From: Ianthella basta
Lineage: Eukaryota; Porifera; Demospongiae; Verongiida; Ianthellidae
Length of the DNA: 64,000 nt
Direction of reading: 5' to 3'
Assembly (NCBI GenBank): GCA_964019415.1
Contig: OZ025882.1
Location: 2,354,927 to 2,418,926 of the forward strand
Shown here: positions 4,036-55,874 of the stretch, in pieces
How positions within the stretch are numbered: position 1 is the stretch's first letter
Layout: each line of letters starts with the position of its first letter
Program-made: the position numbers and the translations under genes
Notes under the pieces: generated by a model
Databases searched by the model: none
The model's input: only the letters and a program-made list of their open reading frames with translations
What the model was told of the DNA's origin: nothing

Positions 4036-4470
4036 ATGCCTTGCTGTAAATGCAATAGACATGGCACTTGTTCAGGATGTGGATGTGCCAAAGCCAGAAG
4101 AAATTGTTCGAACTGTTTGCAAATGAAATTGGACAAATGTAAGAACGTGAACGATCCAGGAGAAGCTGAGTCGAATCAGGAAACGGCAGCACCATCCCCA
4201 GAACTGCAAGGTGATGGAGAGGGGTTTGAAGAAGGAGAAGGTGAAGCTCCCAGAGAAGCCCCCAGACAGGTTCGGCATAATTTGCCATCTCCAGTTCAGG
4301 CTGATTGGGTGGATAATGAAGACTCAGTAGAAGGTGAGCCTAGATCTGAACCGCCAAACTTCATCTGGGGATATCGAAGTGGGGTTGAATTCTGTGAAAA
4401 AGTTCCAAGGGCTACGATGAAGTTGTACAGTGGTGAAGGAACCTGTTCCTACTCCCTATGGGTAAAGTAG
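4036..4470 (+). pseudogene. Retroelement N-terminal cysteine-rich (CXC-like) segment
   Basis: The frame opens with a dense cysteine cluster (C-x-C, G-x-C-x2-C-x-C, C-x2-C, later C) like a tesmin/TSO1 CXC zinc-binding motif, followed by an acidic, low-complexity stretch. Nucleic-acid binding is the likely role. The frame is lost at about 4460, where the downstream sequence continues in another frame (4458-4949). It may start at 3997 or 4036, and I prefer 4036 because the cysteine cluster begins there. Confidence 0.6.
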
Positions 4471-7186: not shown

Positions 7187-7190
7187 CTAT

Positions 7191-7741: not shown

Positions 7742-8346
7742 ATGGGAAATTGTGCAGGATGTCTACAAACACCAGAGGAGAGAGAAGCAAGAGCAAGGAC
7801 CAAGCAAATTGACAGGGAACTCGAGGAAGAAAAGCTCACTATCAATCGCCCTCTTAAGATCCTTCTTTTAGGCGAGGCGGCTGGGGCGTAGCTAGTAGTG
7901 TTGCTATAGCTAGCTAATTGTAGTGGGATGACAAGTAGTGCCAACGATCCAGAATGTAACATGCCGGTGCATGTGCTGTTTATGTTATAGGTACGGCTGA
8001 GTCAGGAAAGAGTACATTTGCGAAGCAGATGAAAATTGCCCATGGAGATGGGTACCATCAGGAAGAATTGGAGAGCTACAAGGTGTAACAAGTGTGGTGA
8101 TTGCATGGTTAATGTAGCTACACAAGTGAGCTAGAGGGAAATGTACCTATAAGGGAAGCCTCAAACAAGCAAACCATGAATGCTCATTGTGGCCTGAATG
8201 TAGTGGATTGCATAGTGATGCAGTTGTGTATCTTTGTTTGGTACTTGTGCCATGTATAGTCAGTGTAGTGGTGAAGGGGTGCACTAGACTGGGCAAGTTT
8301 GAGTTGTTTCTGCATGGGCATTGCAGAAGGTGCTATAGCTCCACTG

Positions 8347-8422
<76 letters not shown>

Positions 8423-11404
8423 ACGCGCGTGTGTGTGTACATGCATGTGTGTAGTTTTTTGACTAGTCTCGCTTCCATCCCCTATTTCCCCGTGTGCTTG
8501 TTATCATTCTGTTGCAGAGAAATATTCTATGCGCGATTGCACAATAATAGGGGCTGGAGACTATTAGTTGCCAGTTGGTAGTGGCCAAGTGTGGCTCAGG
8601 CCATTGACCTTTCTGGCATATCCTGTATGGCAACTCCAAATGAGCAATGGGATTATTGCTTTCATGGCAAAAGTCACATAGCACTCACTGGGTCAATGAA
8701 TGTAAAATACTGATCCTTCTTCCTTCCATCTACAGAGCACTATCTATGACAACCTCTTGACATTGATGCAGGCAGTCATCAATGGAATGGCCAAGCTTGG
8801 CATCACCCTGGTCAACCCAGAGAATGGGGTGAGGGGTTACTACTGTTCTGTTGGACGGAATGTAGCAGAATCAATCGCAACTAACTGCAGGATACTTGGC
8901 CTCGTAGGTCCCGTTTGTGTTCAGCGTCCTGCGTATATGGAGGCAAACTGTTCCGCAATCATTCTACTAGCTATGCATTTGCTCAATATTGATTTGCCTT
9001 TACTACGCTGTGTTATTCTCTCTTCTTTGTCTGAAGGAAGTACTGGTTCCTTTCTGTCACTTGTTTCTTTCCTGCCGTCCTAGCAATATGCTGAGGCTGT
9101 TGTGAAGTACCCTACACCCATCCCAGCTGGGGGATGTCTGCCTGAAGAGCTGGTGGTGGCCATCAAGGCACTATGGAGTGACAGCAGAGTGCAAGAGGCC
9201 TTCAAGAGGGCCCACGAGTACCAGCTGAACGATTCTGCACCATAGTGAGTGTGGGTGGAGGGGTTGTAGTGTGGGTGTGACTGGTCACATACATTACATA
9301 TGCAGCCTGTTGACTTATGACATGTCTGTGTGAGAGAGTGGGTGCCTAAGTACTGTGTGTGGTAATGTACACACATAATACACAGTTTGAAAGCAATTTG
9401 CTGGTACATATTGTACTATTGTATACATATTTTCTTTCTGCTGCATGGCTGGTGTGTGCTGTATATATGTAGTACAGAGTATGAACTCTCTACTGTATGT
9501 TGTTCAATCTTGCTGCTTGCCTGATATGGTTGGTCTCTGTTGAGTTCAATGTGTTCACTGGTTCACAGTGTGTGACACTCATTTGAGGTAGTTAAATGAA
9601 GTGGAACTTAATTCAAAGGGCAATCTGGGAGTTCCCATCACTTTGTACCTCCAGCCCTCACCTAAGATGTTAAAGATCCCTAGTGTGTGGATCCAAAGCT
9701 GGCATTTATTCGACCTGGCGTCTATTCTAATCCAGCATGGTCAATACCCAGACTCTATTTATAATAGCTGCACTGATTCCCAACTTCTATTTGAGCCCTG
9801 CCTCTATTTGGTCATACAGTCTGTTCTCTCACTGGAAACCTATGTTCAGTTCCCTGTTCCCAATGTTGCAAATTTTCGCGGGATGTATATTTCACGAATG
9901 CCCCTTTCCTGACAATTTCGTGATTTTAATTTCGCGAAGCCCTGAACATTTTGTGAATGGCTCCCTTTCTATGGAAGATATCACCACCTAGAGTGGCTCA
10001 GGCATCGATGTACGCTTTGTTTTGTTCTACTGACGCTCTACGGATCATTTCTGACCGTTTACGGATGTCTTCGTTTCATTTAAGTAGTTGCGTTCGCGAG
10101 TATAACGTTTCCAAGGATGGCTGGTCTGCATCAGCGGGAGCAGTTCTTCAGCGTGAACAGGAAAACGGAACAGCAAAGATCCTTATGCAGTGGCAGTCCA
10201 GAAAGACGGCCTGACTGTGGGACACGTTCCATGCACCATATCCTGCCTTTGCTCCATGTTTGTTTGGCACAGTGGCTCGATAGTATGCATGATTACTGGA
10301 GCGTCAATTACTCGAGCTGGCAAGTCCTTGGCAAAGACGTCTACGGTCTTAAAAGTAATCTTTGATCGTCTTCTTGTCCATTCAATCTGCACAAAAGAAA
10401 CGTTACTTTGCTACTCACTTACCAACTTAAGGCTTTCTGTACGTGCATATTGCCCTGGTAAATTGTAAGAATTTTTGCGAATTTAAATTTTGCGAACCTC
10501 CACAGATTCACGAAATTTGCGAAAATAATGTCCCGCGAAAATTTGTACGTTTACGGTACATAATTGTTCCCCCGAAGAGTAAGAGAATTCTTTCTTTGCA
10601 ATGATACCCACTGCTAAGGTTACAAGACTAGGAAAGTCTGAGCACACACAGTTAAACCATAATTATGTAGACTAACTACATTGTGTTATGTACTATGCAG
10701 TTGCGGCAGAGTCCAGAGCGACATCTGTTCTTGTACATGCATGCTTTGGGCCACTATCATTGCTCATTTCCCATGACCATCCTACTCCTGGTGATGGCGT
10801 GTGTTGAAGTCTTCTTATATTGTTCTGTGCAGCTTCTTCCAGGAGATGGATAGAATCCTGTCTGCCAATTACCTCCCCAATGAGCAAGATGTGCTTTGGT
10901 CCAGAGTAGTCACAACAGGTATCATTGAGACATCGTTCCATGTCAATAGGGTATTCTGTCACCTAGTTGAGGTTGGAAATCAGAGGTTCGAGACACTGAA
11001 GTGGAGCCATTGCTTCAGTGATGTCGCAGCTGTGCTGTTTGTCTGTGCCCTCAGTGGATATGACATGACACTGGTCAAAGATGGCAAGACAGTATGTTAA
11101 TATGTCTCTGTGTGTGTAGCTACATGTGTGCATACATTGAATTGGCCCACATTTAGAAGTGATAATGGTTGCTTTGTTCAATATGCTTGTGCTGCTGTGT
11201 GTGCAAGTGTGCCTGTGTTATTGCAATTGCATATTTACGGTACATACATAAACAATATATACTGTACCTACTATTGGCAAAATCTTCCAATACCCACCCA
11301 CACATACATGTACACACCCACACCACATACACACCCACACTACACATGCACACACCCACACCACGCACCCACATCACATGCACACCACACACATATACCT
11401 GCAT

Positions 11405-11473
<69 letters not shown>

Positions 11474-12817
11474 GACACGCACACATATATACACACCACA
11501 CACATACCACACACGTGTGCACACACACACACACATGTGCTGAATATATAACATATACATTGACCTCTTTACTCAGAACTGTCTAGAGGAATCCATGGAC
11601 TTATTCCAAGCCATCTGTAGCAACAAGTTCTTTGCAGAGATTCCAATAGTAAGTTCCTGACCAGGCTAGGGTGTCTTAGTGTATGCAATCACAATGGTAA
11701 CTTCACGTAAAAGTAAGACATTTTGACAGGTAGCTAACAAGCACAACTCAATAGAAGGAGGTGTACATAAGTATAGTTATATCAAATGGTGTGTAATGAG
11801 GGGTTGGCTGAGCTCAGTAAAGGTGATGGCTAACCAAAATGACATGAAGGGTGAAAGACATTCATCAGCATGTCTAGGCCTATATATGTATATGTAGCTC
11901 ACTTGAGCGATTAGTAGCTAATGCCATAGCCTATATCAATGGTACCGATACTAAATTTGGTAAAGGGCACCATCCATCTTCCGTATCAGGTCTGGTTATA
12001 TATTATACGTATCTGGTGTCATGTTCCTTCACCTCATAGCAGTATATACTCATGGTGTTACTCCAGGCTTTATTAGTTCAGTATAATAGCTCAGACTCTT
12101 GTCAATTAGCCTCCAAATGTTTCGAAGCCAACTGCTCCCATGCATAGCTATAGGTACTGACAGGTAATTATGTCTTGCATTGCTCTTTTACATGTCATGT
12201 GGTATAGTGCCTCCCAATTAAGAGTCCCAATGCAGTCAGAATGCTCTGCGTTTCATTACAGCAGGTTTGCAATAGTAGTGGTTTGCACCAGACTCTGTAC
12301 AATCTCCATTAAATGTTGTGAAATGGCTATAGATATAGCTAGTGTTTCTGCTCTTGTATGCATGTTTGGGCAGATTCTGTTTTTGAACAAACAAGATCTC
12401 TTTCGGAACAAGGTTCTGAATTTGGGGCACCATCTCAAGATTTACTTCCCTCAGTATGAAGGTATACACTATTACAATATTATGCATGTGTGTTTGTATG
12501 AATATATTTTGTTACATACATGTATGTATTGCAACATCCTGCTGTTTCATCAGGTTCACTTTGCATGCAACTAAATGCCGTAGTGCTAATATGTATATTA
12601 TGCATCTTATGGTGTTGCCTCCCATGCAGGCCCTGACTATGATGTTGACTCAGCTGGGAAGTTCATTATAGCCCAGTTCATGACACGGAAACATAGTAAA
12701 GACCACATCTATGTCCACTTTACAACAGCCACTGATGACTGTAGCAGGAACATTATTCCAATGGCAGTAAAAGATGTCATCCTCGTGGAGCATGTGATGA
12801 AAATGATGTCTGAGTGA
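7742..12817 (+). CDS. G-protein alpha subunit A (8 exons, 360 aa)
   Basis: Exons: 7742-7871, 7991-8082, 8736-8828, 9084-9244, 10833-11091, 11577-11648, 12374-12461, 12630-12817. Together they give 1083 nt, one open frame of 360 residues, the normal G-alpha length. The N-terminus MGNCAGC offers a myristoylated Gly2 and Cys residues for palmitoylation, so it should sit on the inner plasma membrane. The P-loop is GTAESGKST (44-52), the switch-I Arg is R183 in RVVTTG, the guanine-base motif is NKQD (274-277), and TTAT replaces the usual TCAT. The switch-II motif DVGGQ reads EVGNQ (205-209): the Gln remains but Asp and the second Gly are lost. The C-terminus VMKMMSE resembles no standard G-alpha tail. 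The first intron would use a GC donor. The helical domain is present. Confidence 0.85.
8347..8421. repeat. (TG)n microsatellite
   Basis: About 37 TG units in G-alpha A intron 2, followed by a short GCACGCGCG interruption and more TG-rich sequence. Confidence 0.95.
9869..10545. mobile_element. 677-bp MITE with 15-bp perfect terminal inverted repeats
   Basis: CAAATTTTCGCGGGA (9869-9883) is the exact reverse complement of 10531-10545. TTTCGCG/TTTGCGAA-like sub-repeats lie just inside both ends. There is no transposase frame. It lies in intron 4 of G-alpha A and is absent from the corresponding introns of the two fusion genes. No clear target-site duplication was found. Confidence 0.75.
11406..11470. 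repeat. (CA)n microsatellite upstream of exon 6
   Basis: A pure CA run in a CA-rich 250-bp stretch of G-alpha A intron 5, ending about 105 nt before the exon 6 acceptor. Confidence 0.95.
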
Positions 12818-15959: not shown

Positions 15960-16883
15960 ATGGAGGCTGCCACTTGGTCACAAGAGCTGGGGCTCAATTT
16001 GAGAGACGTGCGAGAGACTGGAAGGAGGTTGGGCGAAGGGTCGTACGGCGAAGTGGTGGAGGTAATGTATTTAGGGACGGCGTGCGCAGCCAAACGGATC
16101 CACTTGGTTTGGGAAGAATTGGGCGGCAAACCCGAGGAGGAGTTTCAGCGAGAATGCGAAATCTGGAGTCGACTAAGGCACCCCAACGTCGTTCAGCTGC
16201 TCGGCCTTCTTTACAAACTGTCCAGTGGTCCAACTAGGAAGCTACCAGCGATCGTCATGGAGAAGATGGACTGCAGTTTGCGTCATGTAGCAGAGACGCA
16301 CCCTCGAGAAGCTCTCCCTCTACCAGTCAAAGTTCACCTCCTATACCAGGTAGCCCAGGGGCTAGCTTACCTTCACGGACTGCGTCCTCCCGTTGTCCAC
16401 AGAGACCTCAGCCCCAACAACATCCTCATCAATATAGACAGCATGACAGCAAAGCTGTCCGACTTCGGTGTTGCTCGAGTGTTTCACTCACAGGCCACCA
16501 GAGGGACCCGTGTACCCGGCACTCAGCACTTCATGCCCCCTGAGACATTTCCACAAGCAACAGCAGAAGCTGGGTACAGTGATCGTATTGATATCTTCTC
16601 GTTTGGCTGTATCATCATCTGTGCAGTCGCACACACATGGCCTGAGCCTCTTCCACCTGTCAGGCACACAGAAGAAGGGCAGCTGGTTGCCCTCACAGAG
16701 GTAGAGCGAAGACAAGAGTACCTCAATCTCTTTGATTCCCAAGAGAAGGCATGCTTTTATGGTATGGTTTGCAATTGCTTGGAGTTTAAAGCATCTAAGC
16801 GTCCAAATTCAATGTCACTGGTGGAGGATATGAGAGGGATCAGAGATGCCCACCCACTGCAGAATTATACTGACTTGCTGCAG
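15960..16883 (+). CDS. Kinase-domain exon of fusion gene B
   Basis: One exon of 308 codons carries the whole catalytic domain. Gly-rich loop is G25-E-G27-S-Y-G30 with V32, ATP lysine K45 (A-A-K), alpha-C Glu E65 in 'EFQRECEIW', and catalytic loop HRDLSPNN (H147, D149, N154). DFG is at 168-170 and the APE-like motif is 'PPE' (193-195). All key residues are present, so an active kinase is expected. The [11 protein letters not shown] loop suits the TKL group, which is inference. The exon ends CTGCAG|GTTAGT in phase 0. If the donor is not used, 20 more codons are read to a stop at 16943. Confidence 0.88.
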
Positions 16884-19800
16884 GTTAGTTTGAGAGACAT
16901 AGTATATAAACTCTGCATGGTGGGTGCTGTGGGGTTCTCTTAGTTGGTCCACTGTACTTGTGCAAGACTTGAAGTGTTATACAGTAAGCCATTCCTAGTA
17001 TACAGATGCTTTCTATTTTGCGGACGGTTTGCACGAACATGGTCGGATACAGAAGGGAGAATCTGTAAATAGTGATCATTTAACTCCTAATTTGCAGACA
17101 TCGAAGAGGAATTGATTGTGAGGTTTTCAAAACTATCGATACTAAAAGCAAGTCAGACAGTACAGGTTGAATGTATATAAGTCAGGCCAATTGGGCTAGC
17201 AGACAGTCGGCTAGCTCAATTGGGTTGTTCTAGAGCGAAGACAAGAAAGGGGGGAGAAGTGGCGGGTGGGAAAGAATTGTGGCTGAAACAGACCAAGAGC
17301 CTGGAGATATCACGCCAGTACCAGGTTCAGAGGCGTCTTAATCAGATGATACCACCATCCGGAGCCACAGATGTCTACCTGCAGCATACCCATTCGCTCA
17401 CTGTCCTCGTTCGCATACCCCGTCCGCTATCCATCGTCTGTGCAGACTGTCTGCAAAATTGAAAGTACCATTCTTATACATGTGCATGCACTCTTGCCTT
17501 CCAATTGACCAGCAAATGTAATTGACTATGGCATCTACATATACTGCGTGCATGACTGTACACTTAATTCTTCAAGACCCTGTTATCAAACTACTATAGG
17601 TAGTTGCAATAATGCCACAAACGTGTCACAGATTTATTGAATAGCAGCAGTGATCGGAATGCAGTGGGAGACCACTACAATAGCAAGTACAGTGTACAGA
17701 CCCCTGACCTTCAGCAACTTGCCCTGGTGGTGTTTTACCTTCCACCAACTGGCATTACCTTCCCTTTGCTGGTGTTTTTCTTACCATCAACTAGCATTAC
17801 CTTCTACTACCATCTACTACTTACCATCAACTAGCATTACCTTCGACAACTTGCACTGGTGGTCTTGTTCATAGTAGCACTGTACACAAACACTGTACTT
17901 GCACCAGCATTGATCGGAATGCAGTGGGAGACCACTACAATAGCAAGTACAGTGTTTGTGTACAGTGCTACTATGAACAAGACCACCAGACAGTGAGTGC
18001 AAGTTGTCGAAGGTAATGCTAGTTGATGGTAAGAAAAACACCAGCAGCGCAAGTTGCTGCAGGTCAAGGGACCATGCACCAGCATCAAACGACGCAAGTT
18101 AGAGCAGGATGCAGTAACAGCTATGGCACTTGCACTTGGACAGAATATTTTGTTCTCACTTAATTGAGTGTGATGTTCTTTTGACATCACATTGAAATGT
18201 CACTGATTCATTTAGCCTTCTAATTGAACAGCAGAGCCGTTAATTACCAATCCCCGCTGACTGCACAGCCACACTGACCACCTGCACTTTCCTACACAGT
18301 TTCGTGAGCATTTGCTGGATTTTATATTAACTTATTATAACACCCACAATCCGTATTAATGTACCGTAGCAAGGATATGGTGCTATGGCATTTTATATTA
18401 GCAATTTGGCGCCACCTTACACGAAAGTGAAGGCCTAATTAAAATTTTAGCCATATTTAAAATCCATTGATTGCCCTTAGGTTTTATACCTTGTCTACAG
18501 TCTGTGCCCCAGGGTGCCCAAAGTATCCAAACAATATTTAAATACATTACATGTACATCATGATGGTGTAAATCTAACTTTAATGATGAGTCTAAGAGAG
18601 TTTTCCATATCCTTAGGAATTAACAGTTGTTAAGAAGCAAGCCAAAGAGGAATCTGAAAGAACAGACAGAATTATCAGTGAATTGAGAGCAAAGGAAGCT
18701 GTAAGCCTGTGCATGTGAAATACATACTGCCGCTATATGGTAGATGTTTTCAGGTTCAAACATACAAACCATATGCATGTTCCGTGTTTGTTTTGTGCAG
18801 TAAACGAGATGGTCTGTACAGTTGCTTTAGATCTTTCTGTAATACCCTTTTTCATTCACAGGTGAGTGCACCCCAGGAGAAGGATAGCCCCTTGCTAAAA
18901 GAGGCAAAGGAACAGATATCTCACCAACAGCAACAGTTGCAGGTGTGTATATGGGGCTAATAATTTAGGCATCCCAGCATGCTGCAGTGCATCTATATAT
19001 CCACTGATGCATAGTGATCAATTCTTGGAAGAATAAGTCTCAGGCACATGAGAAAGTTGGCTTGTGTCCTTGAGACAAGGTTGTAGCACAATTAGGATAG
19101 AAACTGGTCTGACCATTAAAATTAATAGTGCTACGTAGCTACCTCATAGGGGCAATTTTGGTACCATCAATATCCCACTTACATGTGATCAACCGAGTTA
19201 CTGTAAAGTCATTTTGTCGCCGCATACATGCATCAAATGACCAACTTGCATTTGAGAGATAATATTGAATTGGTCATGATTTATAGCAACATGATCTTGC
19301 AATTGCACTTTGTATTATAGCAACAGCTATTGCATTTTGATAACTTGAATGTGTAGTATCACAATAGACCAACACACACTTTCAGTATGGATGGAGGATC
19401 TGCACTTATATTAAGGTGCTCTAACATTAACAGGATGTCGGCACATTCTCATGCATAATTATATGCAAGTGTCATTATGATAGTATTATATGGCCACCAT
19501 TTAGAGAGTAGAAAGTGATTGTCCATATAAGTGCTTTGTATTTTCATAGTAACTTGGCAAAACTCAGCCATCAGCTAAACCAAAAGAATGAGTTCAAGTC
19601 TCTATCATCAATCAACCAGCATCTTGCTTCATACTTATGTGACAGTTGTTGTGGCACAGAGGTGCAGTAAAGACTGTCATATAATACTTACAAACATTAT
19701 TATGCATATTGTTATGTACCTATTATGTGCATTTGCCTAGGAGTTGCAAGGTGAACTGAGAGAAATGCATTCACGGCTCACTGCAGTGCAGAAGGAGAAG

Positions 19801-22800
19801 GATATCCTGCTAAAGGAGGTGGAAGAGGAGAAGTTACAGCAACAACAACAGTTGCAGGCATGTTGGGTACCAGTAAGATACAGACCTGATTTCTGTGAAC
19901 ATGTAAGTATATTATGTTGATGGAAAGGAGACCCCTTGGCTGCAAGAGTGGCGCAATAAAGCACCAGCAGTGAGCCAAATGGTAATGTGTGAGCCCTCCA
20001 AGTTCTGATTCCTAGCGTACAAAAGAAGTCTACTTATTCACAAAATTTTTAAGCATATTATACAAGGCTTCACCTCATGTTCGGACTTCACAAAACAAGC
20101 TTGTGAATTTGAAAGTTCTCACACCAGGGACATTCACAACAGATACGTCCACAATATATACATCCATGTATGCAAGTTGAGGTGTCAGCTGCATACTCTA
20201 GCCACTTCGGCATGTAGGAAAGGGAGCTGTGCCTTAATTGCATCACCACCGTGTGGTCGTGATGCAAGCATGGTGTAAGGATGGTACTGTGTTTCCAGAA
20301 AACACATTAAATGTTACACATGTCATCATCTACTGTACGCATGTAGTAGTAGAACCGGGAGGGATGCACATGTAGTCAGCATTACATAGAGGATGAAATT
20401 CTATAGCCACTTTCACCAATCTCTCTCTATATGCATGCACCAAGCATATTGAACTTCATGCACAGATCTTTCCAGACACATACCCCCCTTTCACACGACC
20501 ACTTTAAACTGATTTTGAAAGTGTTTTAATAATGGTTTAAGTTGATTGCCTTCACATGGGCATAAAGCGGTTCATGGGCAATGACATCAATGACATCATT
20601 ATTCAGTTGTTGCTTTAATAGAAAACTGAGTATGTAAGGCATATGACAGCGATAAAGAGGCTACTTAGAGAAAGAATAATGAATATAGTTATAAGTATAA
20701 TGACAAAGGATAATAATAAATGACAATAACATCATACCAAAACACCTATACAGAAATGAATAAATAATTAGAACAAGCAGATAATTCAGCAAAACCAACC
20801 AAACCTAAAAATCACACTACTCGCATTGAGCAGCAGAGTCCTCTCTGCAGTCCCGAGGATGGCCGCTGTGTTGCCACGTTAGACTGCCACTGCAATCTGC
20901 TGTAAGAAGTACTGATGGGACAGTGGCTTTGAAGTGTCAGCTGCAATCCACCTGCCAAAGTCCCTGAAGAAGTGGCCTGCCTCTGGCCCCATTGCCCCCA
21001 ACATCTCCACTGCTTTTGGAACAAAGAAATGGCTGGGGTCTAGATGGACATGTTTCTCCCTCTTCCTACGTTACATCTCTGCTGCCACTGTCCCAGCTTC
21101 CCTCGTTGCAAGCACTGCATAAGATGGCGCCAGGGTATCAGGGCATGTGACATCCCAGACCAACACTCTACCACCTCTCCAGTTGTTTGCTTAGTTGATT
21201 AAGCGTGAGGTTAATATGACGGTGGCTGCCTTCGTTTGTTGGGCAATTTGCTACCGTAGGCATAGAAGAAAACGTTAAAAAAGGAAAAGAATGATTGTAG
21301 CAAACAAATACAATTGCAAGCCTTTTAAGACCAATGCAATTACAAGCCTTTTAAGACCTACAGGAGCAGAATTATGCAGCATGCATCATTCTACACAAGC
21401 ACAAATATGCAGCTGCTTAGAACATGCATAAGGAGCTTGGCTGGCCTACTCTGGCCTCCAGGAGGGCGGCAAGTGAGGCTATGGCTATGTCCCTCAACGT
21501 CTCTGGCTGTGGACCCTTGTACTTGGCAGACTTGTTCTAGCCAGCTGCAAATGCTCACCAGCACAGGACAAGGTCTGCCTCTTCTGGAGGTTTTCACCTA
21601 CCTCAAGTTAGGACAGAAATAGGGAAGAAGTACTTTGTGTACAAAGGAACATGCAGATGGAATGCCCTTCCACCCAGCTTGGGAACAGGTGGAGCCACTG
21701 CCATCTGTTCACATCTATTGGCTTACGATCTTAAGAAATTGTTTCAAAGCATGAGTCATTTGTCTCTTTCCATGCATATTATAATATCTACGTATGTGGG
21801 CACATGCATTGATCTGGAGACACATCTCCAATCACATGCTTGTCTATAGTGGGAATGTTTCCAATAGATGAGGAAGTGATTGCCAAAGTTCATGACTTAA
21901 AATTCTTTGTTGTCATATTGTAGACCTCTTCTAGTGGAAAGATGAAAGGTTGGGACAGGAAGAAGAAAGGTGACAAGGAACTCAAGGAGGCAGCAAAAGT
22001 AAGGAGTAAGCAAACTGACAAGGAACCCAGGAGAGACAAAGCTGTTACTGATAATTCAATCAAGATCCTTATCTTGGGTGAGGATTAGTTGTGGTTCTTG
22101 TATATGTTACGCGCATACCTCCAATTGACCACTGGGCATTGGTACAGGATCTGTATACTTGCACTGTATGTGTGTGTATATGTCATTCACAGGAGCGGGG
22201 ATGTCAGGGAAGAGTACACTTATGAAGCAGATGAAGATTATCTATGGAGGTGGTTATCAGCGCAAAGAGTTGGAGAGCTACAAGGTGAGAAGGAGGGTAT
22301 GTTCCAGTGGGAGGGAGTGAAGTCTCAATGCAAGGAGCTTTAGGAGAACAATCATTTAGGTGGTTTTTGTGTGCATATTCCTAATCTATGGATGCAGTGG
22401 TCTTGACAGCACATCCTGGTCGGTAGCTGTAGTAAGGTACTGCATGTTAGGGTGTGTTCAACCGCACCGGGACCCATAACTCCTTTGTGTAGGTTGATTG
22501 TAGTATGTGCCATGCTAATGTGCAGTATACTAAGTCTATAGCAATAGAATAGCAAGTGGTAAGCTCTTTGTGTGGGTAGATGACTGCCTGGACGTGCTCA
22601 AGACTTCAGCATTTAGAGGATCAGTGTAGTTGCTATCAGCAAACAGGAGAAACCAGGTTTATATACTTTAGTGCCATGTTCCTCATCTGTTGGCTGTATT
22701 GGGTAAGAGTTTCTGTTGAGTGCATGAAGTAATGTTTGCCATTCCTTGTCTTAGATGCTGTACTATGGTTATAATTTTGTATGAATTGTCCGTATGATGC

Positions 22801-24729
22801 TGTTCATCACCGCCTTGTAGCACTGATCATGATTAACTCTTGTGAGGATTGATATAGAACAGTGTTGCTGAAAATTTAGTATATTCTATTTTACCACAGA
22901 GGTGACTTTGTGTGTGTAGCTACATACAGTTAGCCTCTATTGTTCTGTTTCAACAGCTACTGTAATATATTGCATAGTCAAATATCGTAGTAGACAATCG
23001 AAGAGTTGCTGAGAGAACATTTTCAAGTCACTGCTCTCTTTACTCCTTTCTACCTACAGAGCCTCATCTATGACAACCTCTTGATGTCAATGTGGACAGT
23101 CATCAAGGGAATGACCAAACTTGGCATTTCTCTGGCAAACCCAGGTAATGAGGTAAGGAGGATACTTGCAATATTGTCCGTCATCATCCCTTGTTTGTTG
23201 CCCTTATTTCAGTCTTTTTGAGGCCACCACACACTTGGCTGGGTGTGGGTCTAATTGCTGATAAAGTGCTTAGCTTTGTCTCATGCTTACAACCTGAATA
23301 TACTGTATATACTGTATATGTTACGCGTATACCTCCAACCATACCCACGCACACCTCATGCCAGCCTTCCTATTCCACTTCCTATTTCTTCGTGCAACAC
23401 CAGCACCTGCTCTCTTCAACTTGATATGATAATATACCTCCATCATTAAACTCTCCTTCCTTTCTTCCACCCAAGAAATACGCTGAGGCTGTTGTGAAGT
23501 ACCCCACACCCATCCCAGCTGGGGGATGTCTGCCTGAAGAGCTGGTGGTGGCCATCAAGGCACTATGGGGAGATGGCGGAGTGCAAGAGGCTTTCAAGAG
23601 GGCCTATGAGTACCAGCTGAATGACTCTGCACCATAGTGAGTGTGGGTGGGGTGGTATAAATGTTGTGGTTTAGTAAAGCTTATTTTAGCACTGTATCTA
23701 GTACACGTCAACCCTTCCAATGTCCTTTTCCAGCAACTTCTCACTCAGTAACAATCCTGGCTGTGTCTTTGTGTAAGCATGTGCTTCCTCATGCTATGAG
23801 TACTTGGATGAGGCCATCCTATCTGAGTACCCTATCACAATAAAGGGTACAGACTGTTCAAGTTTTATGTATTCTACAGTTGGTAAAAATGTTAAAATGA
23901 CAGCTTTTCCTACATCGATTATGGCCTAGTCTAACATATAATGTTGGTTTAAACTGTCTCCGTCTTCCACCTCACATGACTGTCCTTCTGATGATGGTGC
24001 ATGTTGAAGTCTTCTTATATTGTTCTGTGCAGCTTCCTCCAGGAGATGGGCAGAATCCTGTCTGCTGATTACCTCCCCAATGAGCAAGATGTGCTCAGGT
24101 CCAGAGTACTCACAACAGGTGTCATTGAGACATCGTTCCATGTCAACAAGCTGATCTATCGGTTGGTGGATGTTGGAGGAGTGCGGTCTGAGAGGAGAAA
24201 GTGGATCCAGTGTTTTGATGATGTCAGAGCCGTGCTGTTTATCTGTGCTCTCAGTGGATATGACATGACACTGTTTGAAGACGGCAAGACAGTAAATTAC
24301 CTGTATTTTGTGTGTGCATACAGTATGTGTGCGTGTCAGTGCATGTGTGCATACATGTGCCATGTGTGTGTGTGTGTGTGTGCAGTGCATGTGTGTACCT
24401 TTGTGTGTGCCCAGCCTGTGTGTGCATAGTATACTACATTGCAATGGATCATTTGATTCTTTACCAAATTGCTGTGTGGATGAGGGTGCAATCAATGATT
24501 TGAGAGATGATGTATAGTATTAAGAGGCATGTACTGTATGTACGTATAATTATTGCAACTTGCACTGTGTGGTGGTGTACCATGGGGTGGTGGAGGTACG
24601 CAGTGTGCCATGGGGTGGTGGTGGTACGTGGTGCACCATGGGGTGGTGGAGGTACGTGGTGCACCATGGGGTAGTGGAGGTATATACGTACGTGATGGTA
24701 ATGGTGTTGATATTATTGTACGTACTGTA

Positions 24730-24764
<35 letters not shown>

Positions 24765-27552
24765 TGTAATATAATTATGCATTCAATCAAATGGGGACAA
24801 GAAGTGAACAGAAATATGAAGTGTACAGTGAATACAATTACATACTATTACATACCAACATACATACCAATTACATACATATAATTATGTATATATTTAA
24901 CAATAAGATACGTGTTATTATGCATGCAGCAGACAAAAACGAAAGACAGATATGCATGACATTAATTGTACAATCATACTGATCAATTAAATCAAATAAA
25001 ATCAATGAACCATTTATTAATATTATTATTATTTTTTATTGTGGATGTGTTAATTAAAATAACCTATAGCTTGATTGTGCCACATATTAATATGAATGTA
25101 CATGAGTAGCTGTTAACATTGCTTGTTATCAGTGACACTATGTTATCTATGATCGTATTGTCAGGGTCACTATGGCAGAAGTTAGGATTGATATGTTACT
25201 TTGTATACTGCTGTGTGTGTACTTGGACCTTTGTGTCACTGATGTACTTGGAATTCCACATACACATGTACTGTACCTTTGATGTTAGTTTGAATTTTCT
25301 GTCATGCATGCACTGTGTATATACATGTGTACACATGCACTCCTACAGTGTTTAAATATATTTTACTAACTGCTAATATTGTATGCATGTGTATATTTCC
25401 CAGAACCGTCTAGAGGAGTCCCTGAACCTGTTCCAAGCCATATGCAACAACAAGTTCTTCACAAAGACAACAATGGTAAGCTCATTGCCTTTACAAAGAA
25501 TCACCTTCATTTGCAAAGTTTGTGTAACTTACATAAAACATTAACTAGTTAGTTGTTAGCAGCTAATAATCTAAACTCTCCCAATGCTTCAGAATTGTAA
25601 CCTTACGTATATAATCTGGGGAAGCCTTTAGCCAGTAGGCTACAATTCCAGGCATCCAGTGAGCATGCTCATACACATACGCATGTACACCAGTGAATCA
25701 TGCAGTCTGTAGCTCAGTTTGTAACTCTATAGCCATTCAGTGGGCAGTGAGCTGACAGTAGGAAGTGCTGCCAATTGAATACTAGCTTGACCCTTACTAC
25801 TGGGATCCCATATACAGTATAGTCTTGGCACTTGAAGTTTGAATCTTTGACCCCGCCAAGTCCACCAGTACAGTTTCTACCACGAAACATCAGTATAAGT
25901 ACACACATCCTAGGGACCATTAGATGTCCCTGGGATATTACTTATACTTTGTTCTGGGTGCCTTGAGATGTAGTCTTCAGGCTAAAGTTTTTTTTCATCA
26001 GGTGAAATAAAATATCCTGGTCCTGATCCTGTGTGTTCTGGGTGCCTTGTGAAGTAGTCTGATCCTGTGTGTGTGCAGATCCTGATCTTGAACAAAATGG
26101 ACATCTTCCGGGATAAGATCATGCATTCAGGGCGCCATCTCAGAACATACTTTCTTCAGTATCAAGGTGTGTGCATATGTGTATGGCATGTGCATAGACT
26201 GGGTGCGTGTGCATGTGCCAGTATTTGCAAATAATGGGACTGGTACCTGTTACCAGCTCTCTCGATTGGTACAGACCTTTTTGAATCACTTGTTCACACC
26301 AGTACTGGTATCCAGGGAAACGCTTGCACGTCATTATACGGATTCATACGCATACTTACAGTATAATTGCAAAAACTAGTGGTTGACATAGATTGTGAAC
26401 TAGAGATTTTATTCAGCAATACTGCTCATGTTCATGTATAATACCATGATTTCTACTCTGGTACCCAGTGCCCAGTGTGGACAACCAACCTGAAAACGTC
26501 TGTACATAGACAGTGCTTCACATGCTAGCTTCATTCAAAGGAGACTATATAATCTAGCAAGCTAGAACCTTCTCTGCACCCTAGTGCTTACATAATTGTA
26601 AAAATACTGCAGAGAAAGTTGATTTAATCAGCTACCTGAAATGAGGATTGGGCCTTCAGCCGTCCTGAATCAAGTCAACTAGATGCATTATGTATTTGTT
26701 TCCACTTGTAATGAATGGGACAGACAAGCTTGTGGCTGAATTAGTGTACAGCAAAGACTATCAAGAGTGACCATGCCTGTGAGGGCAGAAGGACATATAT
26801 ACAGAATACTGTATGGCCAGTACTTGACAGGGTATCTATTTTGGCAGATTGGCAGTTTGAGAGTAATCCACCAGTATTTTCAACCACCAATAATTGTTTA
26901 CCATTATATGGCTTAAGGTTTACCCACTGCCAAAGTTTATCCCACGTAATGGCCATGGAATAATCCACCAAACTAAGTTCCTGCCAAAGGTTTTGGTCAT
27001 ATGGTATGAAGATGGTGACTCAAACTGCATTAATTGTTGCGTAAATGTTCAACTTCTATTCCAGAGATATCGGAAATAGGCAAACGTACTAGGCTGAGTT
27101 ACTTCATGAAAAGGCCACACTGCAGTGCATGTGGGATTGATGAATGCTTTTGTGTATAACTGGAGATCTTGAGATGACACTAGATGATGAAACTGAGTGT
27201 CTGGTTAGCCATTCTAATGGATTTGCTTGGTCTGAACACCTTGCACAGAGACAGCATGGTATAGTGCTGTCTGTGTGGGGATGGTTAGATTACACTGTGC
27301 TCTGTACTATCTGAAGTGCTCACATGTAGGTCAGTGCACGTGGTATTAACTTCCTGCGCAGGCCCTGACCGTGATGTTGACTCAGCTAGAAAGTTCATTG
27401 AAGGCGAGTTCAAGGCACGCAACCACAACAAAGACAAGATCATCTATAGCCTTTTCACAACAGCCACTGATATCAGCAACGTCCAGGTGGTTTTTAAGGT
27501 TGTATTTGATACCATCATCAAGGAGAACCTGGAGGCAGCACAGCCGATCTGA
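15960..27552 (+). CDS. Kinase/coiled-coil/G-alpha fusion protein B (12 exons, about 771 aa)
   Basis: Exons: 15960-16883, 18617-18700, 18862-18942, 19741-19857, 21924-22077, 22193-22284, 23060-23152, 23476-23636, 24033-24291, 25404-25475, 26079-26166, 27362-27552. The total is 2316 nt in one frame. The first four junctions are all phase 0, and the G-alpha part has the same exon lengths and phases as G-alpha A. Domains are kinase about 13-300, coiled coil about 309-402, basic linker 403-453, G-alpha 454-771. The protein should phosphorylate Ser/Thr or Tyr and bind GTP. P-loop is GAGMSGKST, switch I has R593, switch II is DVGGVR with Val619 at the catalytic Gln position, and the base motif is NKMD (684-687). 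Without MGxxxC there is no lipid anchor at the G-alpha start. No RNA evidence was available, so a two-gene reading is possible but less likely because paralogue C repeats the structure. Confidence 0.78.
16884..18616 (+). other. Intron 1 of fusion gene B
   Basis: A 1.7-kb intron holding the 17.65-18.07 kb inverted repeat. An 80-codon plus-strand frame at 17220-17462 has no recognisable domain, and I do not call it a gene. Confidence 0.6.
17651..18070. repeat. Large hairpin with an internal direct repeat
   Basis: 17858-17901 is a perfect 44-bp reverse complement of 17944-17987. The pairing continues with 17820-17854 against 17998-18032, and more loosely outward to about 17700 and 18070. A 45-bp direct repeat starting TGATCGGAATGCAGTGGGAG occurs at 17651-17695 and 17911-17955, the second copy forming the loop and part of one arm. 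There is no coding capacity. It is a foldback element or hairpin-RNA source. Confidence 0.75.
18617..19857 (+). CDS. Coiled-coil exons of fusion gene B
   Basis: Three phase-0 exons (18617-18700, 18862-18942, 19741-19857; 28, 27 and 39 codons) encode charged, Gln-rich heptad-like sequence, for example '[15 protein letters not shown]' and '[17 protein letters not shown]'. This suggests a dimerising spacer between kinase and G-alpha. The second and third exons share a 'KEKD.LLKE' repeat, so they probably arose by exon duplication. The last exon would use a GC donor (CAG|GCATGT). A GTAAGA donor 15 nt further on at 19873 also keeps the frame in this copy. Confidence 0.7.
20500..21370. other. Intronic insertion-like stretch
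   Basis: Part of the intron between the coiled coil and linker exons, without any counterpart I can see in gene C. It has an AT-rich half, then a more GC-rich half (20810-21180). Two frames there (plus 20934-21122, minus 20812-21024) overlap each other and show no known domain. A 22-bp direct repeat built on 'CAAGCCTTTTAAGACC' lies at 21310-21360. Probably old transposon sequence. Confidence 0.35.
21924..27552 (+). CDS. Linker plus G-alpha exons of fusion gene B
   Basis: Eight exons matching G-alpha A exon for exon. The first (21924-22077) corresponds to G-alpha A exon 1 but begins with an acceptor in place of the ATG and MGNC lipidation site. It encodes a Lys-rich linker ending IKILILG. The Ras-like and helical domains are complete. 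The C-terminus is ENLEAAQPI, similar in place to the receptor-contacting tail of canonical subunits but with an unfamiliar sequence. Catalytic Gln is Val and the P-loop Glu is Met, while Lys, Ser and Thr of GKST, the switch-I R-V-x-T-T-G and K-W-I-Q-C-F are retained. This predicts nucleotide binding with poor hydrolysis. Confidence 0.85.
24581..24692. repeat. 28-bp minisatellite, 4 units
   Basis: Four units beginning CATGGGGTGGTGGAGGTACG in intron 9 of gene B (the fourth incomplete). The equivalent intron of gene C (near 52727-52750) has about one degenerate unit. Confidence 0.85.
24729..24762. repeat. (TTA)n microsatellite
   Basis: About ten TTA/ATT units in intron 9 of fusion gene B, beside the minisatellite. 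Confidence 0.9.
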
Positions 27553-33169: not shown

Positions 33170-35394
33170 TTAATAGATCGCAACTTGTTTGGCTCCATAA
33201 CTAACTACCAGCAGGTCTCCATTTTGATCAAAGCTCACAGAACGAGGACTGTTCACATTAAGTGTATGCACCAGTTGTCCCTCTTGGTTGAAAATGAATA
33301 CACGACTGTTGCCATCACTTGCTACCACAACATTCCCCTCTGTGGTGAAGGTAAGGCCAATAGGTCTATAGCTGTTGAGTTGGCCTTGTCCAAACTGCCT
33401 GACATATGTGCCATCAGCAGTGAAGACTTGCACTCGTGAATTGCTGTAATCACTGACATACAACTGTCCATCTGGTGAGATGGCAATGCCATGGGGAGAA
33501 CTAAACTGTCCAGCACCACTGCCTCGTGATCCAAAGGTGTGAACCAGCTGACCATTCTGAGTGAACACTGCTACACGATGGTTGCTGCTGTCTGCCACAT
33601 AGACCTGGCCATTTGTATGGACTGTCAAATCTACAGGATGTTTTGTCTGGCCTTGACCAATTCACCTGACAAAAGTGCTATCTTCTCTGAAGATGTCTAC
33701 ACAGTGGTTGTAGTAGTTGGCAACAAACAGCAGACCATCACCTCCGGTGGCAAGACCATAAGGGTTGGACAGCTGACCTGGTCCTGTCCCTTGTCCACCA
33801 AATGTCTTAACATGCTTCCTTTGAACATCAAACACATGGATTTGGTGGTAGCTATAATCAGATACAAAAATAGTGCTATTTGGAGACACAACTATGCCCC
33901 AGAGATAACCAGGCTGCTGTGGAAACTGAAGAACCCCCTTGCTGGCCTTCAATTTCTGAATATCTCCAGTGACCTTCTTGGACACCCACTGACCCTGCAG
34001 AAATAGAGCTGGTCCATCCTCAAACCTCACTGCAAACGGGCTGCCCTTGATGTGGTCCCCATTCACCAGTACAGTAAGCTCACACTTCCCAGTGTACACT
34101 GCATTGAAGGCCACCTGGTACTGCCCACCGCCACTGTCCTCCACATCAGCTCTAATGGCCACACCGGGAAGTGGGCGAGCTAGTCGAAGGAAGGCCTGCA
34201 CTCTCTCCCCACCACCACTGCACGCCACCCTGCTACTGTCCTTGGTGGTCAGAGTGAAAGCCACTGGCTTAGAGTCTAACTGCTCTTCCACTCCAGCTAA
34301 GGTGCACTCTTTAGGGCTCGCTCCTTGCTGGACATGGCCAAACGCCTTGATGGCTGAGAGGAGAGCCTGCTCATTGAGAGGGACAATACGCACCACAGGA
34401 GACACACAAGGATGGACTTGCTGCCCTCGCACCTTGATGGTGGTAGCTGATGCCTTCACCTGGACCACACTCTGACCAGAGATGACTTCGTGTTGGTTGC
34501 CTTGGGCACAGAGGAGAGACAGGGCAGTGTGAGCAGTGGAGAGTGCATCCTCTTCATCGCTGCAGCTCTGGACACTCTTGGTTATGAGGTCCTTCTTCTG
34601 GTTGCAAGCTGCTGTGATCTCCTCACACACCTCCTCCTCACGCTGTGTGATGGCAGTGTGAGCTTGCTCAAACAAGCAATGTGCATCCTCCAGTGCCTTC
34701 TCTCTTGACTGATCCAAAGTGGTGCTCTGAGCCTCAAGCCCTCCTTCCTCCTCTGGTGGGCCTTCCTGGCAGTGCCCACCACTTGCTGGGCCACCTTCAG
34801 TGACTGCCTGTGTCTCTGGGACACACTGGGATCCAGGTACTTGGAGCGGTGAGGGCCCTTGTCCAGAGCACAGGCGTGGCACATCAGAGCGTCACACCCT
34901 TCGCAGTACCACTTCAGGATCTCATCACCATGTTGGGAGCAGCTGTGGGGATAGCTTTCTTCATGAATACTGCTGCTGGGTGGGATGTCTGGTTCATATC
35001 AAGAGAGGCTAGCTCTTCGATGGACTTTACAGTGTGGCTACCAGTAAGGTCACTCATAACCTGATGGCTATCAAGGCAGGCAGAGCAGAAGAACTTCCAA
35101 CAGTCCGTGCAGAAGGCAACTGCTTTTGCACCACTAGTCTTGCACGACGTGTTACCACACACCACAGGTGGGCTATCCCTTCTAACCATTTGAACGATCT
35201 TCTGACCTTCAATGTACCGACCCAGTGGTCCATTGCGTACTGGAGCACACGGGCCTTCAACCACTTTACAGGCCTTCACACCTTGAGGTTGCTCTTGAGG
35301 TGCACATGTTGCATTGTTATTGCACTTGGGGCATTGCAGGCAACCATCTTGCTGCTTGACAGCTAGCAGGCACTCCCTGCACACAGAGTGCATG
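33170..35394 (-). pseudogene. TRIM-NHL copy B, truncated and frameshifted
   Basis: Closely similar to TRIM-A and TRIM-C but dead. The 5' end is lost inside the RING (the first RING cysteines are missing). A 1-nt deletion lies near 34955 after B-box 1, a second 1-nt deletion near 34740 in the coiled coil, and a CGA-to-TGA stop at 33662-33664 interrupts the NHL region. Filamin and NHL sequences are otherwise well preserved and still end 'KQVAIY', as in TRIM-A's '.QVGIY'. The truncation point adjoins the G-alpha A intron 5 copy. A short product is conceivable but unlikely. Confidence 0.85.
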
Positions 35395-37165
35395 TGCTGA
35401 ATGTATAACATATACATTGACCTCTTTACTCAGAACTGTCTAGAGGAATCCATGGACTTATTCCAAGCCATCTGCAGCAACAAGATCTTTGCAGAGATTC
35501 CAATAGTAAGTTCCTGACCAGGCTAGGGTGTCTTAGTGTATGCAATTACAACGGTAACTCACATAAAAGCAAGACATTTTGACAGATAACTAACAAGCAC
35601 GACTCAATAGAAGGAGGTGTACATAAGTATAGTTATATCAAATGGTGTGTGATGAGGGGTTGGCTGAGCTCAGTAAAGGTGATGGCTAACCAAAATGACA
35701 TGAAGGGTGAAAGACATTCATCAGCATGTCTAGGCCTATACAGTACTTTTTGGGTTGGTTGTCCTGACCGGATGGTTGCAGTCGGTTATCGGCTATCAAT
35801 TATCAACCTGGTGACGTCATTTTTGCATGACTTTTAGTATACCCAATTCTATTGGCAGACAGTGTACAGGAGATTCAGGGTATGTGGCGAAGGCGGGCGA
35901 CCTGAATCATTGACTGGTCGTGATTCGACAGTTTTCTCAGCAGTCTGGAACGCAGGCTACAGAAAATCGTTGCACGCGATCGGTACGAGTCTGTTTGTCC
36001 CCCGTGCTGTCTGTTCACTTATCGAGAAGGCGTTTTCCTCTTGGTACAGAACGTCCCCACCATTCTTAGCCTTAAATTGTCCGAATATGCTTTGTTCCAG
36101 TCTTCCTCGTTCCAAACACCGCTGCTTCAGCTAGACTTGTAGCCGCCATAATGACGTCACCAGGTTGTAAATTGATAACCGATAACCGATTGCATATATC
36201 AGGTCGGGACAACCAACCCAAAAGGTTTTGTATAGATGTAGCTCACTAGATCGATTAGTAGCTAATGCCATGGCCTATATCAATGGTACCGATACTAAAT
36301 TTGGTAAAGGGCACCATCCATCTTCCGTATCAGGTCTGGTTATATATTATACGTATCTGGTGTCATGTTCCTTCACCTCATAGCAGTACTCACTCATGTT
36401 GTTTCTCCAGGCTTTATTAGTTCAGTATAATAGCTCAGACTCTTGACAATTAGCCTCCAAATGTTTTGGAGCCAACTGCTCCCATGCATAGCTATAGGTA
36501 CTGATAGGTAATTATGTCTTGCATTGCTCTTGTACATGTCATGTGCTATATATAGTGCCTCCCAATTAAGAGTCCCAATGCAGTCAGAATGCTCTGCGTT
36601 TTATTATAGAAAGTTTGCAGTAGTAGTGGTTTAGACCAGACTATGTACAATCTCCATTAAGTTTTGTGAATTGCATGGCTATAAATATAGCTAATGTTTT
36701 CACTCTTGTATGTTTGTGCAGATTCTGTTTTTGAACAAACAAGATCTCTTCCAGAACAAGATCCAGTATTCGGGGCGCCATCTCAGGACTTACTTCCCTC
36801 AGTATGAAGGTATACACTATTATAACATTATGCATGTGTTTTTGTACAAATATTTTGCTATATATACATGTATGTATTGCAACATCTTGCAGTTTCATCA
36901 GGTTCACTTTGCATGCAACTAAATGCCGTAGTGCTAATATGTATATTATGCATCTTATGGTGTTGCCTCCCATGCAGGCCCTGACTATGATGTTGACTCA
37001 GCAAGGAAGTTCATTATAGCCCAGTTCATGACACGGAAACATAGTAAAGACCACATCTATGTCCAATTTACAACAGCCACTGATGACTGTAGCAGGAACA
37101 TTATTCCAATGGCAGTAAAAGATGTCATCCTCGTGGAGCATGTGATGAAAATGATGTCTGAGTGA
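35391..37165 (+). pseudogene. Partial G-alpha A copy (exons 6-8)
   Basis: Exons 35434-35505, 36722-36809 and 36978-37165 match the last three exons of G-alpha A in length and phase, with the same introns. All three are still open: NKQD is kept, and the exon 7 copy ('[18 protein letters not shown]') looks more canonical than that of G-alpha A itself. The tail is again VMKMMSE. There is no P-loop, switch I or switch II, because everything upstream of intron 5 was deleted, so no functional G protein can be made. Confidence 0.85.
35741..36230. mobile_element. 490-bp MITE with about 85-bp terminal inverted repeats
   Basis: The left arm (35741-35823, including TTTTTGGGTTGGTTGTCC and ending CCTGGTGACGTCAT) pairs with the reverse complement of about 36147-36230. 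TATA flanks both ends (35737-35740 and 36231-36234). The paralogous site in G-alpha A intron 6 (near 11880) is unfilled and reads 'gcctatatatgtatatg', so this is a post-duplication insertion. A 90-codon internal frame (35862-36134) has no transposase features. Confidence 0.85.
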
Positions 37166-39136
37166 TGTTCCACCCACTACTTTCTGAACATTTAATTGCT
37201 GTGAGAGTGTACTGTACATTAAATTATTATTATTACACATGCATGTGCTTAATTGGAGACACAGATACCTACATTGGCAATTTGATATGTGCTCTGGAAA
37301 CCTTTTATTCACTGTTTCTGCACATCCTGCAGATGTAGAGTATGCAATGACATGGTCAAAATGTCTTTTTGGAGGTGTACTGTATGTTTGGTTTGTAAGA
37401 TTAATTTTACAAATTATCAAGAATAGTTACATTCATAAGATAGCAATGCAGGCTTTAACTTGCTCTCTCTATATATAGATGCTATAGGTGTCAGCTACAG
37501 ATATGGGAATATGCATGCTCCAAATGTAGCCAGAGCATCCACTCCAGCATCAAGAGGGATCAAGTTGAGTTGTCCAAGAACCAATAATAATATACCCAAA
37601 TTGAATATGCCCCAAATGCAGCCATAGATATGTACAATAATTACGTAGTATAATATTGTATATGGCACATGTATATATACCGGCATATACCAAACATATG
37701 CATGCGTGACAAAACTTTGCAGTAAAGAATGAAGGGCTTCAGCTGCAGCTGCAGTTGGTCACGCATTAGAAGGGTAGTTCTGCAACTTGCGCCCTACATG
37801 GGGAAGACCTGAATATCTGGTTGAAATGTCTTAATCAGTAAGGTTCCAACCCTGTTTGGAAGCCAGTATACATACCATGAGAACTATCATTCTCAAGAAT
37901 GATCACATGCATAATCCAATTGTGTATTATCTAGATTAGCTTACTCACAGCATTAATGTTAGCAACAGACAGGATGGTTAGACTTTGTGGATTCTCTGCA
38001 GCTGATAGAAAGTAAGCAAAACAATGTATGCGCAGCTATATACATAGTCTGCTGCAGCACATTGCTGGCCTAGCTTCATTCTTGTCTAAATTTGCCACCC
38101 ATTGTACAAGCATTGAGTTAATGCAAGAACTGTGCAGAGACTACTTTCGACAAATCTTAATTTATCTATCCACAGAATTCATAAAATATATTCTGCAAAA
38201 TTTCTGACATTATATTAAACTTATCTTGTGGCATTATGCAAGGTCATTAGACGAAACTAACACTCTATTGACTAGCCTACCAAACTGTAAGGATGTGTCC
38301 ACTCTGTCCAACATATCTCCCCCTCTACTACAGAATGCTCTTGGTCAGCGTTACAAAAAGCAGCTTGGTTGTTGCATGAGAGGTCAGAAGGAGAGGAGGG
38401 AGGTCTACTCTGAGATTGACCTCAAGTCCACACAGAGGTTGGGAGCAATCTGCTCACCATTCCAAGCACTGCAGCCACGGTAAAGGTGGTCTAGTCTAAG
38501 TTATTTCAATGAGTTTGTGCAATGACTGTTAGGCAATTTTATGGAAGGCTACCATGGTGGAATGGTACGGATGTGAGGTGTGGGGAGATCATATTTACAT
38601 CCCCCCCTTCAGTCCGTAGATGATTGTCCTGTGAATCCAGACAAAGTGGATCAGACTACAAAGCATGCAGTGAAATTTCAACTGAACTGATTTCTGTCAA
38701 ATCTGTGATTGTCACAACTTTAAGTACAATGTACTAGCATTTTGATTTGTCTTGTGTGCCAGCTCTGACTGTGATACTATGCTCGTGGAGAAATAGGGGA
38801 AGTGATATATTTTGATGCATGTTTAGGATGAGACATGCAGATTATTGTCCAAACATCCATTACTAATGGAACAATATAATTACAAGTATGCAATTATGAA
38901 TAATAATTACAATGCTATAATTATACAATAATCCTTGATCAATCAATCATTATTATTGCATACCTACATACAACTACATGCACATGCAATTGCATGTGTC
39001 ACTACTTATGCAGCTCAAGGTGTACATATATACAGAAATTTATGTGCACACAAAGCAGTACTATGTATGTATACTCCTTATTACATTTGTTGCAATTATT
39101 ATATGAAGGACAGTAACATACACTGTATGGGTTTTG
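37166..39136. other. Intergenic between the G-alpha A fragment and TRIM-C
   Basis: Mostly without signal. 38580-38700 is paralogous to 31540-31640, the TRIM 3' flank. A plus-strand frame at 38226-38483 ends 'ALGQRYKKQLGCCMRGQKER...', a basic, Cys-Cys containing tail that could be a terminal exon of an unknown membrane protein. I cannot support an acceptor firmly, so it is not called as a gene. Confidence 0.4.

Positions 39137-44619: not shown

Positions 44620-55874
<11,255 letters not shown>

Follow-up and report, generated by a model that had tools for sequence, protein, structure and literature searches.

A putative kinase-G-alpha fusion gene in the sponge Ianthella basta and the kinase and coiled-coil module at its 5' end

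Introduction

In animals, protein kinases and G-alpha subunits are, to our knowledge, separate proteins. A stretch of 64,000 nucleotides from the sponge Ianthella basta (contig OZ025882.1, here C15, positions 2354927-2418926; hereafter the window) raises the question whether a single gene can encode both, since an earlier note on this DNA had read in it a protein kinase joined through a coiled coil to a complete heterotrimeric-type G-alpha domain. Here, we analysed the gene concerned (15960-27552, forward strand; copy A) together with its paralogue in the window (copy B) and with stand-alone G-alpha relatives in the same genome, using the assembly of 209 Mb in 96 contigs for searches. Judging from the sequence, copy A is probably (at a chance of roughly 70%) a real kinase-G-alpha fusion gene that arose from a 5' module of kinase and coil and was later duplicated as a unit to give copy B.

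Results

Copy A has one open frame for kinase, coil and G-alpha

The 12 exons of copy A splice into a single open frame of 771 residues plus stop, in agreement with the 772 codons first counted. A kinase exon of 924 nt (308 codons) is followed by three coil exons of 84, 81 and 117 nt, all in phase 0, and by eight G-alpha exons of 154, 92, 93, 161, 259, 72, 88 and 191 nt (Table 1). The internal borders of the latter are common to the stand-alone G-alpha gene of the window, copy C (7742-12817), and the exon-for-exon match to a G-alpha gene stands as originally described. In the Pfam database, copy A matches Pkinase at residues 20-289 (E 4.5e-38) and G-alpha at residues 429-760 (E 1.2e-115), the latter over profile positions 3-333 of 333 with the helical domain included. 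The catalytic motifs ascribed to the kinase, i.e. the Gly loop (GEGSYGEV, 25), the Lys (AAKR, 43), HRDLSPNN (147) and DFG (168), were all found, and among its many matches in the PDB CTR1 comes first, with CDK2, Roco4 and IRAK4 also present. Residues 22-364 of the G-alpha part (369 residues) align to structures of gustducin and Go/Gi, and the nucleotide-binding motifs GxxxxGKST, NKxD and TxA (G1, G4 and G5) are present. The linker shows a heptad pattern at a level which, in a scoring scheme of our own, was reached by 0 of 300 shuffles. A continuation of the coiled coil into the alphaN helix of G-alpha was considered and rejected, as the score of the N-terminal part of the first G-alpha exon (g1) was reached by 285 of 300 shuffles in copy A and by 284 of 300 in copy B. 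The N-terminal extension consists of kinase and coil and is not of the plant XLG type, and the Roc and COR domains of Roco proteins were not among the Pfam matches at E 0.001.

Copy B (44620-55874) shares exon order and splice sites with copy A, as had been noted, and the phases as well. Its frame is open in both the coil and the G-alpha part; the Gly loop of its kinase reads GESSYG, and the stretch occurs once in the assembly. Between the two copies, the ratio of nonsynonymous to synonymous substitution rates (dN/dS) is 0.25 for the kinase, 0.32 for the coil, 0.25 for g1 and 0.31 for the remaining G-alpha exons (g2-g8), with dS values of 0.32, 0.40, 0.65 and 0.35, respectively. The similarity of dS in all parts but g1 fits a single duplication of the whole fused unit. 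A short duplicate at 42939-43378 comprises the region upstream of copy B and the initial 63 nt of that copy's kinase exon.

The junction exon aligns with the leader of a stand-alone G-alpha gene

A stand-alone relative, P (L031 1184-8984), lies about 160 kb upstream of copy A, starts with MGNC and has kept DVGGQ. As a search of L030-L031 did not recover its exons g6 and g7, P was rejected as an intact parent, and it is used only to show what the old leader and start looked like. The 100 nt preceding the start codon of P align at the same place in copy A with a score of 62, reached by 0 of 1000 random window places, and in copy B with a score of 36 (3 of 1000). In place of the P leader, both fused copies hold a splice acceptor and six codons in frame, and the start of P, ATGGGAAATTGC, is matched by ATGAAAGGTTGG (A) and ACGGTAAGTTGT (B). 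The MG/C lipidation site, MGNC in both C and P, has thus become an internal MKGW in A and carries an ACG codon in B; neither copy retains the myristoylation glycine, and B has lost the start codon as well.

On a splice matrix trained on 25 G-alpha introns, the junction acceptor scores 8.2 in A and 8.9 in B, which among 687 AGs puts them at the 98.4th and 99.1st percentiles, compared to -3.3 for the homologous site in P and 0.0 for the P site read in an alternative register that lacks the AG; the acceptor of exon 2 scores -1.5 (A) and -1.6 (B). The observed/expected ratio of CpG dinucleotides (CpG o/e; window median 0.26) is 1.08 at the kinase start of A, 0.99 at that of B, and 0.20 and 0.28 at their respective G-alpha exon, compared to 0.92 and 0.63 at the starts of P and C, and the CpG counts around the start are 15 in P, 0 in A, 2 in B and 7 in C. 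Exon g4 of copy A is 96% identical to that of P and 80% to that of B, while for g1 the identities are 80% to B and 65% to P; such patchiness is what gene conversion would give. A frame on the opposite strand, which we take to be KLHL-like, apparently starts from the same CpG-rich stretch as P.

The same kinase and coil cassette precedes other genes

In the kinase search of the assembly, 128 matches were scored of 803 first-look candidates. The family is very large, with at least 128 scored matches on C11, C14, C8 and other contigs, many of them in tandem arrays on C11. The cassette pattern of a single-exon kinase followed by phase-0 coil exons also occurs in the three next-closest cassettes, which are 75-80% identical to copy A: L021 (C16:4572464), L023 (C14:3485873) and L025 (C22:5880605). 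All five closest cassettes (A, B and these three) combine a phase-0 coil donor with a phase-0 acceptor at the next gene on the same strand, and show CpG o/e values of 0.99-1.09 at the kinase start (covering, for L023 and L025, only the fetched start of the kinase) and 0.19-0.37 at the junction. The chance of four independent junctions all being in phase 0 is about 1 in 81, a rough and after-the-fact figure.

The next gene is G-alpha in two of the five cases and eIF4G-like (L021), CAP-Gly (L023) and USP9X-like (L025-L026) in the others. For the eIF4G-like gene, one MIF4G piece lies over the Pfam cut-off and MA3 just under it, with a PDB match to eIF4G1 at E 1.9e-5; no domain was matched in the exon that follows the coil, which could alternatively be a terminal one. 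The CAP-Gly gene, presumably CYLD-like, has two CAP-Gly pieces, both slightly under the Pfam cut-off, and a PDB match at only E 0.06. In the USP9X-like gene, UCH_UBL1 and ARM_UBP24_USP9X-Y are over the cut-off and UCH is under it, and a match to FAF-X starts within one residue of the first post-coil exon (E 2.4e-10); about 5 kb of L025 reads N. In the more distant cassettes L028 and L034, no C-terminal Pfam domain was found except for a 33-residue DUF7041 stretch in L028. The Pfam scan covered the fetched loci other than L022, L024, L027, L029, L030, L032 and L033. It appears an even call to us whether a transferable 5' module of kinase and coil, which brings a CpG-rich start and phase-0 donors of its own, has been joined in frame to four or more unrelated genes (G-alpha, with a later duplication, and the eIF4G-like, CAP-Gly and USP9X-like genes). 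In this reading, the module would in each case have taken over the transcription start, and the captured leader or first exon would have turned into an internal exon.

The catalytic glutamine is replaced in both fused copies

The G-alpha domain of copy A is complete in length and helical domain, as claimed for it, but not in its catalytic residue: the Gln of DVGGQ is replaced by Val in A (DVGGV) and by Ala in B (DVGGA). Among the best 120 of 3166 G-alpha relatives, this Gln is kept in 114, with Val in one (P0238), Ser in one (P0228) and four not scored by the pattern. Loss of the catalytic Gln from G-alpha or Ras leads to very slow hydrolysis of guanosine triphosphate (GTP), and the G-alpha stays GTP-bound.

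Comparison with known proteins

When proteins of 0.55-1.75 times the fusion length were searched with the G-alpha part, 82 matches were obtained from 7119 candidates; none is listed with a kinase domain, and none contains HRD- and DFG-type motifs together in the pattern applied. Conversely, PF00503 (G-alpha) was in none of the 120 matches listed from a search with kinase plus coil (at least 144 matches, 7993 scored candidates). No protein with Pkinase plus G-alpha, the architecture which the earlier note proposed to look for in sponge proteomes, was among the matches listed in these searches. In the literature, titles and abstract openings gave no kinase-G-alpha fusion; most subscription papers fell outside this scope, hence it is no proof of absence. 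The fusion of a kinase to a signalling GTPase is itself known; a GTPase of the G-alpha class did not turn up in any such fusion within these searches.

Among the matches listed, the nearest organism-named G-alpha is a G(o)-like alpha of Dysidea avara (P0203, 68% identity), and kinases of D. avara are 35-40% identical to the kinase of copy A. Related sponge-type kinases (about 35-45% identity) carry an extra C-terminal domain, Kelch or SH2 in D. avara models and NHL in metagenomic ones; varied C-termini on such kinases are therefore already known, but copy A differs from them in its G-alpha C-terminus, not seen among the 120 listed. With heterotrimeric G-alpha (PF00503), copy A shares the complete Ras-like and helical domains and the internal exon borders of the stand-alone copies of this genome, but the fused copy stands behind a kinase, lacks the N-terminal MGxC and has its catalytic Gln replaced. 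Protein P0130 has the same kinase-then-GTPase order, with two kinase domains at the N-terminus; its C-terminal GTPase, which we assume to be Rab-like, is however a small one without helical domain, and no coil was seen.

Roco/LRRK proteins likewise hold a GTPase and a kinase in one chain, but their Roc domain is Ras-like without helical domain and the order is GTPase-COR-kinase. Plant XLG and mammalian XL-alpha-s proteins are G-alpha subunits with a long N-terminal extension, encoded in the case of XL-alpha-s by an alternative first exon spliced to G-alpha, but these extensions are not kinases. A report on choanoflagellate and sponge fusions of G-protein-coupled receptors with kinases (PMC12716839) describes parts of one signalling chain joined to a kinase, the join being at the receptor and not at G-alpha.

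Other features of the window

The coordinates of all copies are collected in Table 1. Among the at least 128 scored kinase matches, none of the copy A type lies near copy C, and A and B are the only ones on C15. Retroelement-like open frames, judged by eye, lie just upstream of copy C (3988-7190), and the blocks of the partial G-alpha D match the end of copy C at 92-97% identity. Frames of TRIM-NHL type at 469-2895, 33662-34891 and 39137-41530 (-) lie in duplicated blocks which are about 88-89% identical; two of them have B-box, filamin and NHL domains and one has filamin and NHL only.

Table 1 Positions of the G-alpha copies and their exons in the window.
Feature	Position	Strand	Description	Basis
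Copy C	7742..12817	+	Stand-alone G-alpha; start MGNC; switch II EVGNQ	
Copy A exon 1	15960..16883	+	Whole kinase domain in a single exon; CpG-rich start (o/e 1.08)	Pfam Pkinase
Copy A exon 2	18617..18700	+	Coil, phase 0	Homologous exons in L021, L023, L025
Copy A exon 3	18862..18942	+	Coil, phase 0	
Copy A exon 4	19741..19857	+	Coil, phase 0; GC donor CAG/gcatgt (exon/intron)	
Copy A exon 5 (g1)	21924..22077	+	Putative former G-alpha leader and alphaN helix; ancestral ATG at 21942, now coding in MKGW; acceptor score 8.2	Alignment with L031
Copy A exon 6 (g2)	22193..22284	+	P-loop GAGMSGKST	
Copy A exon 7 (g3)	23060..23152	+	Helical domain	
Copy A exon 8 (g4)	23476..23636	+	Helical domain; 96% identical to P	
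Copy A exon 9 (g5)	24033..24291	+	Switch regions; DVGGV, catalytic Gln to Val	
Copy A exon 10 (g6)	25404..25475	+		
Copy A exon 11 (g7)	26079..26166	+	NKMD	
Copy A exon 12 (g8)	27362..27552	+	TTATD, C-terminal helix, stop	
Partial G-alpha D	35431..37167	+	Last three exons only	Self-comparison, sequence
Copy B kinase exon	44620..45550	+	4-nt insertion; TGA just before donor	Alignment
Copy B coil exons	46783..48394	+	46783-46866, 47773-47856, 48284-48394; phases and GC donor as in A	
Copy B g1 exon	49174..49402	+	Acceptor as in A; ancestral ATG is ACG; alphaN lengthened	
Copy B g2-g8 exons	49498..55874	+	G-alpha, open frame; DVGGA	

Discussion

In the reading we favour, copy A is a fusion gene: a sponge-type kinase and coiled-coil 5' module would have been placed immediately in front of a G-alpha duplicate, and its last coil exon, by being spliced to the former leader of that G-alpha, would have made this leader and the old start codon coding. 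The fused gene would then have been duplicated as a unit to give copy B, with the frame of the B kinase shifted since. The single polypeptide that was predicted at the outset is indirectly favoured for copy A by the open frame with both domains, the junction homology, the acceptor gain, the start-codon change, the CpG lost from the leader, a dN/dS under 1 in every part and the phase-0 and CpG pattern common to all five closest cassettes; for copy B, it is not, as a 4-nt insertion in the kinase exon, seen in the alignment with A, shifts the frame into the TGA at the exon border.

This insertion, which the earlier note does not mention, which may be either a sequencing error or a true frameshift and for which copy B was rejected as a second intact fusion in this assembly, is one of several observations that weigh against a fusion. 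The putative fusion of copy A is read from the genomic sequence, from which we infer a continuous transcript beginning at the kinase start. The leader of copy C is not homologous, with 411 of 1000 (P vs C) and 664 of 1000 (A vs C) random places scoring as high, and thus the leader argument stands on P alone. Copy A retains an in-frame ATG at the old start position (21942). The donor of the last coil exon (exon 4) is GC and not GT in copies A and B, and its score of 0.5 is below all 25 training donors (lowest 5.2); since most other cassette donors are below the training range as well, the matrix fits the front part of the gene badly. CpG-poor starts also exist elsewhere, namely in the L032 G-alpha (0.11) and in the three TRIM-NHL frames (0.08-0.20), and the CpG deficit was rejected as sole proof of fusion for this reason. 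Finally, a polyadenylation-type hexamer, A[AT]TAAA, lies 98 nt past the coil exon of A; as the coil-to-G-alpha interval has four such hexamers in A and one in B while the scanned 3' flanks are nearly without them (one in A, none in B and C), the hexamer says little either way.

Two neighbouring genes, i.e. a kinase and coil gene ending after the coil and a G-alpha gene with a start codon of its own (in A the ATG at 21942, in B one further downstream), would agree with the purely genomic nature of the data, the GC donor, the in-frame ATG of copy A, the great number of kinases scored in the family and the distant cassettes L028 and L034, which bar the DUF7041 stretch lack a C-terminal domain. 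We nevertheless consider this arrangement unlikely, since the start codon is gone in B and the myristoylation glycine in both copies, an acceptor has been gained at the same place in both, and there is little CpG at their G-alpha exon, whereas P has an island. It is improbable, too, that the chimeric gene is transcribed but functionless and decaying: the frameshift of B, the exons g6 and g7 missing from P in this assembly and the loss of the catalytic Gln from both fused copies would suit such a decay, but dN/dS between A and B is 0.25-0.32 in all parts, and copy A has a frame that is open throughout and intact kinase motifs. A locus with two products, as in mammalian GNAS (XL-alpha-s), would yield, from shared downstream exons, a long product with kinase and G-alpha and a short one with G-alpha only. 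The ATG of copy A, at the ancestral position and with A at -3, is compatible with it; the little CpG at that exon and the loss of this ATG in B make it quite improbable.

With regard to function, the loss of both the catalytic Gln and the N-terminal lipid site suggests that the G-alpha part of the putative fusion is more likely a slowly hydrolysing docking module than a timed switch. We tentatively propose that the coil would pair two kinases, and that the G-alpha part would remain GTP-bound for long and dock the paired kinases at G-alpha effectors, RGS proteins or G-beta-gamma. The coupling of GTP state to phosphorylation envisaged in the earlier note is in line with the nucleotide-binding motifs and with the presence of kinase and GTPase in one chain, but not with the loss of the hydrolysis Gln in A and B. 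For a Roco-like switch, in which the kinase would be active or inactive depending on the nucleotide in the G-alpha domain, the same two features (G1, G4 and G5 kept; one chain) can be cited; it has little probability nonetheless, as hydrolysis is expected to be very slow with Val (A) or Ala (B) in place of Gln, and as the order kinase-coil-GTPase differs from that of Roco proteins.

In a protein that joins a kinase to a true G-alpha, two central signalling switches would be linked, and the comparison with the stand-alone relative would show how a 5' leader turns into coding sequence. If several unrelated genes were indeed captured by one kinase front end, this would be an unusual route to new signalling proteins, with one recurrent genomic mechanism linking a kinase to G-protein signalling, translation initiation and deubiquitination, and the genome of I. 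basta would represent a natural series of such fusions.

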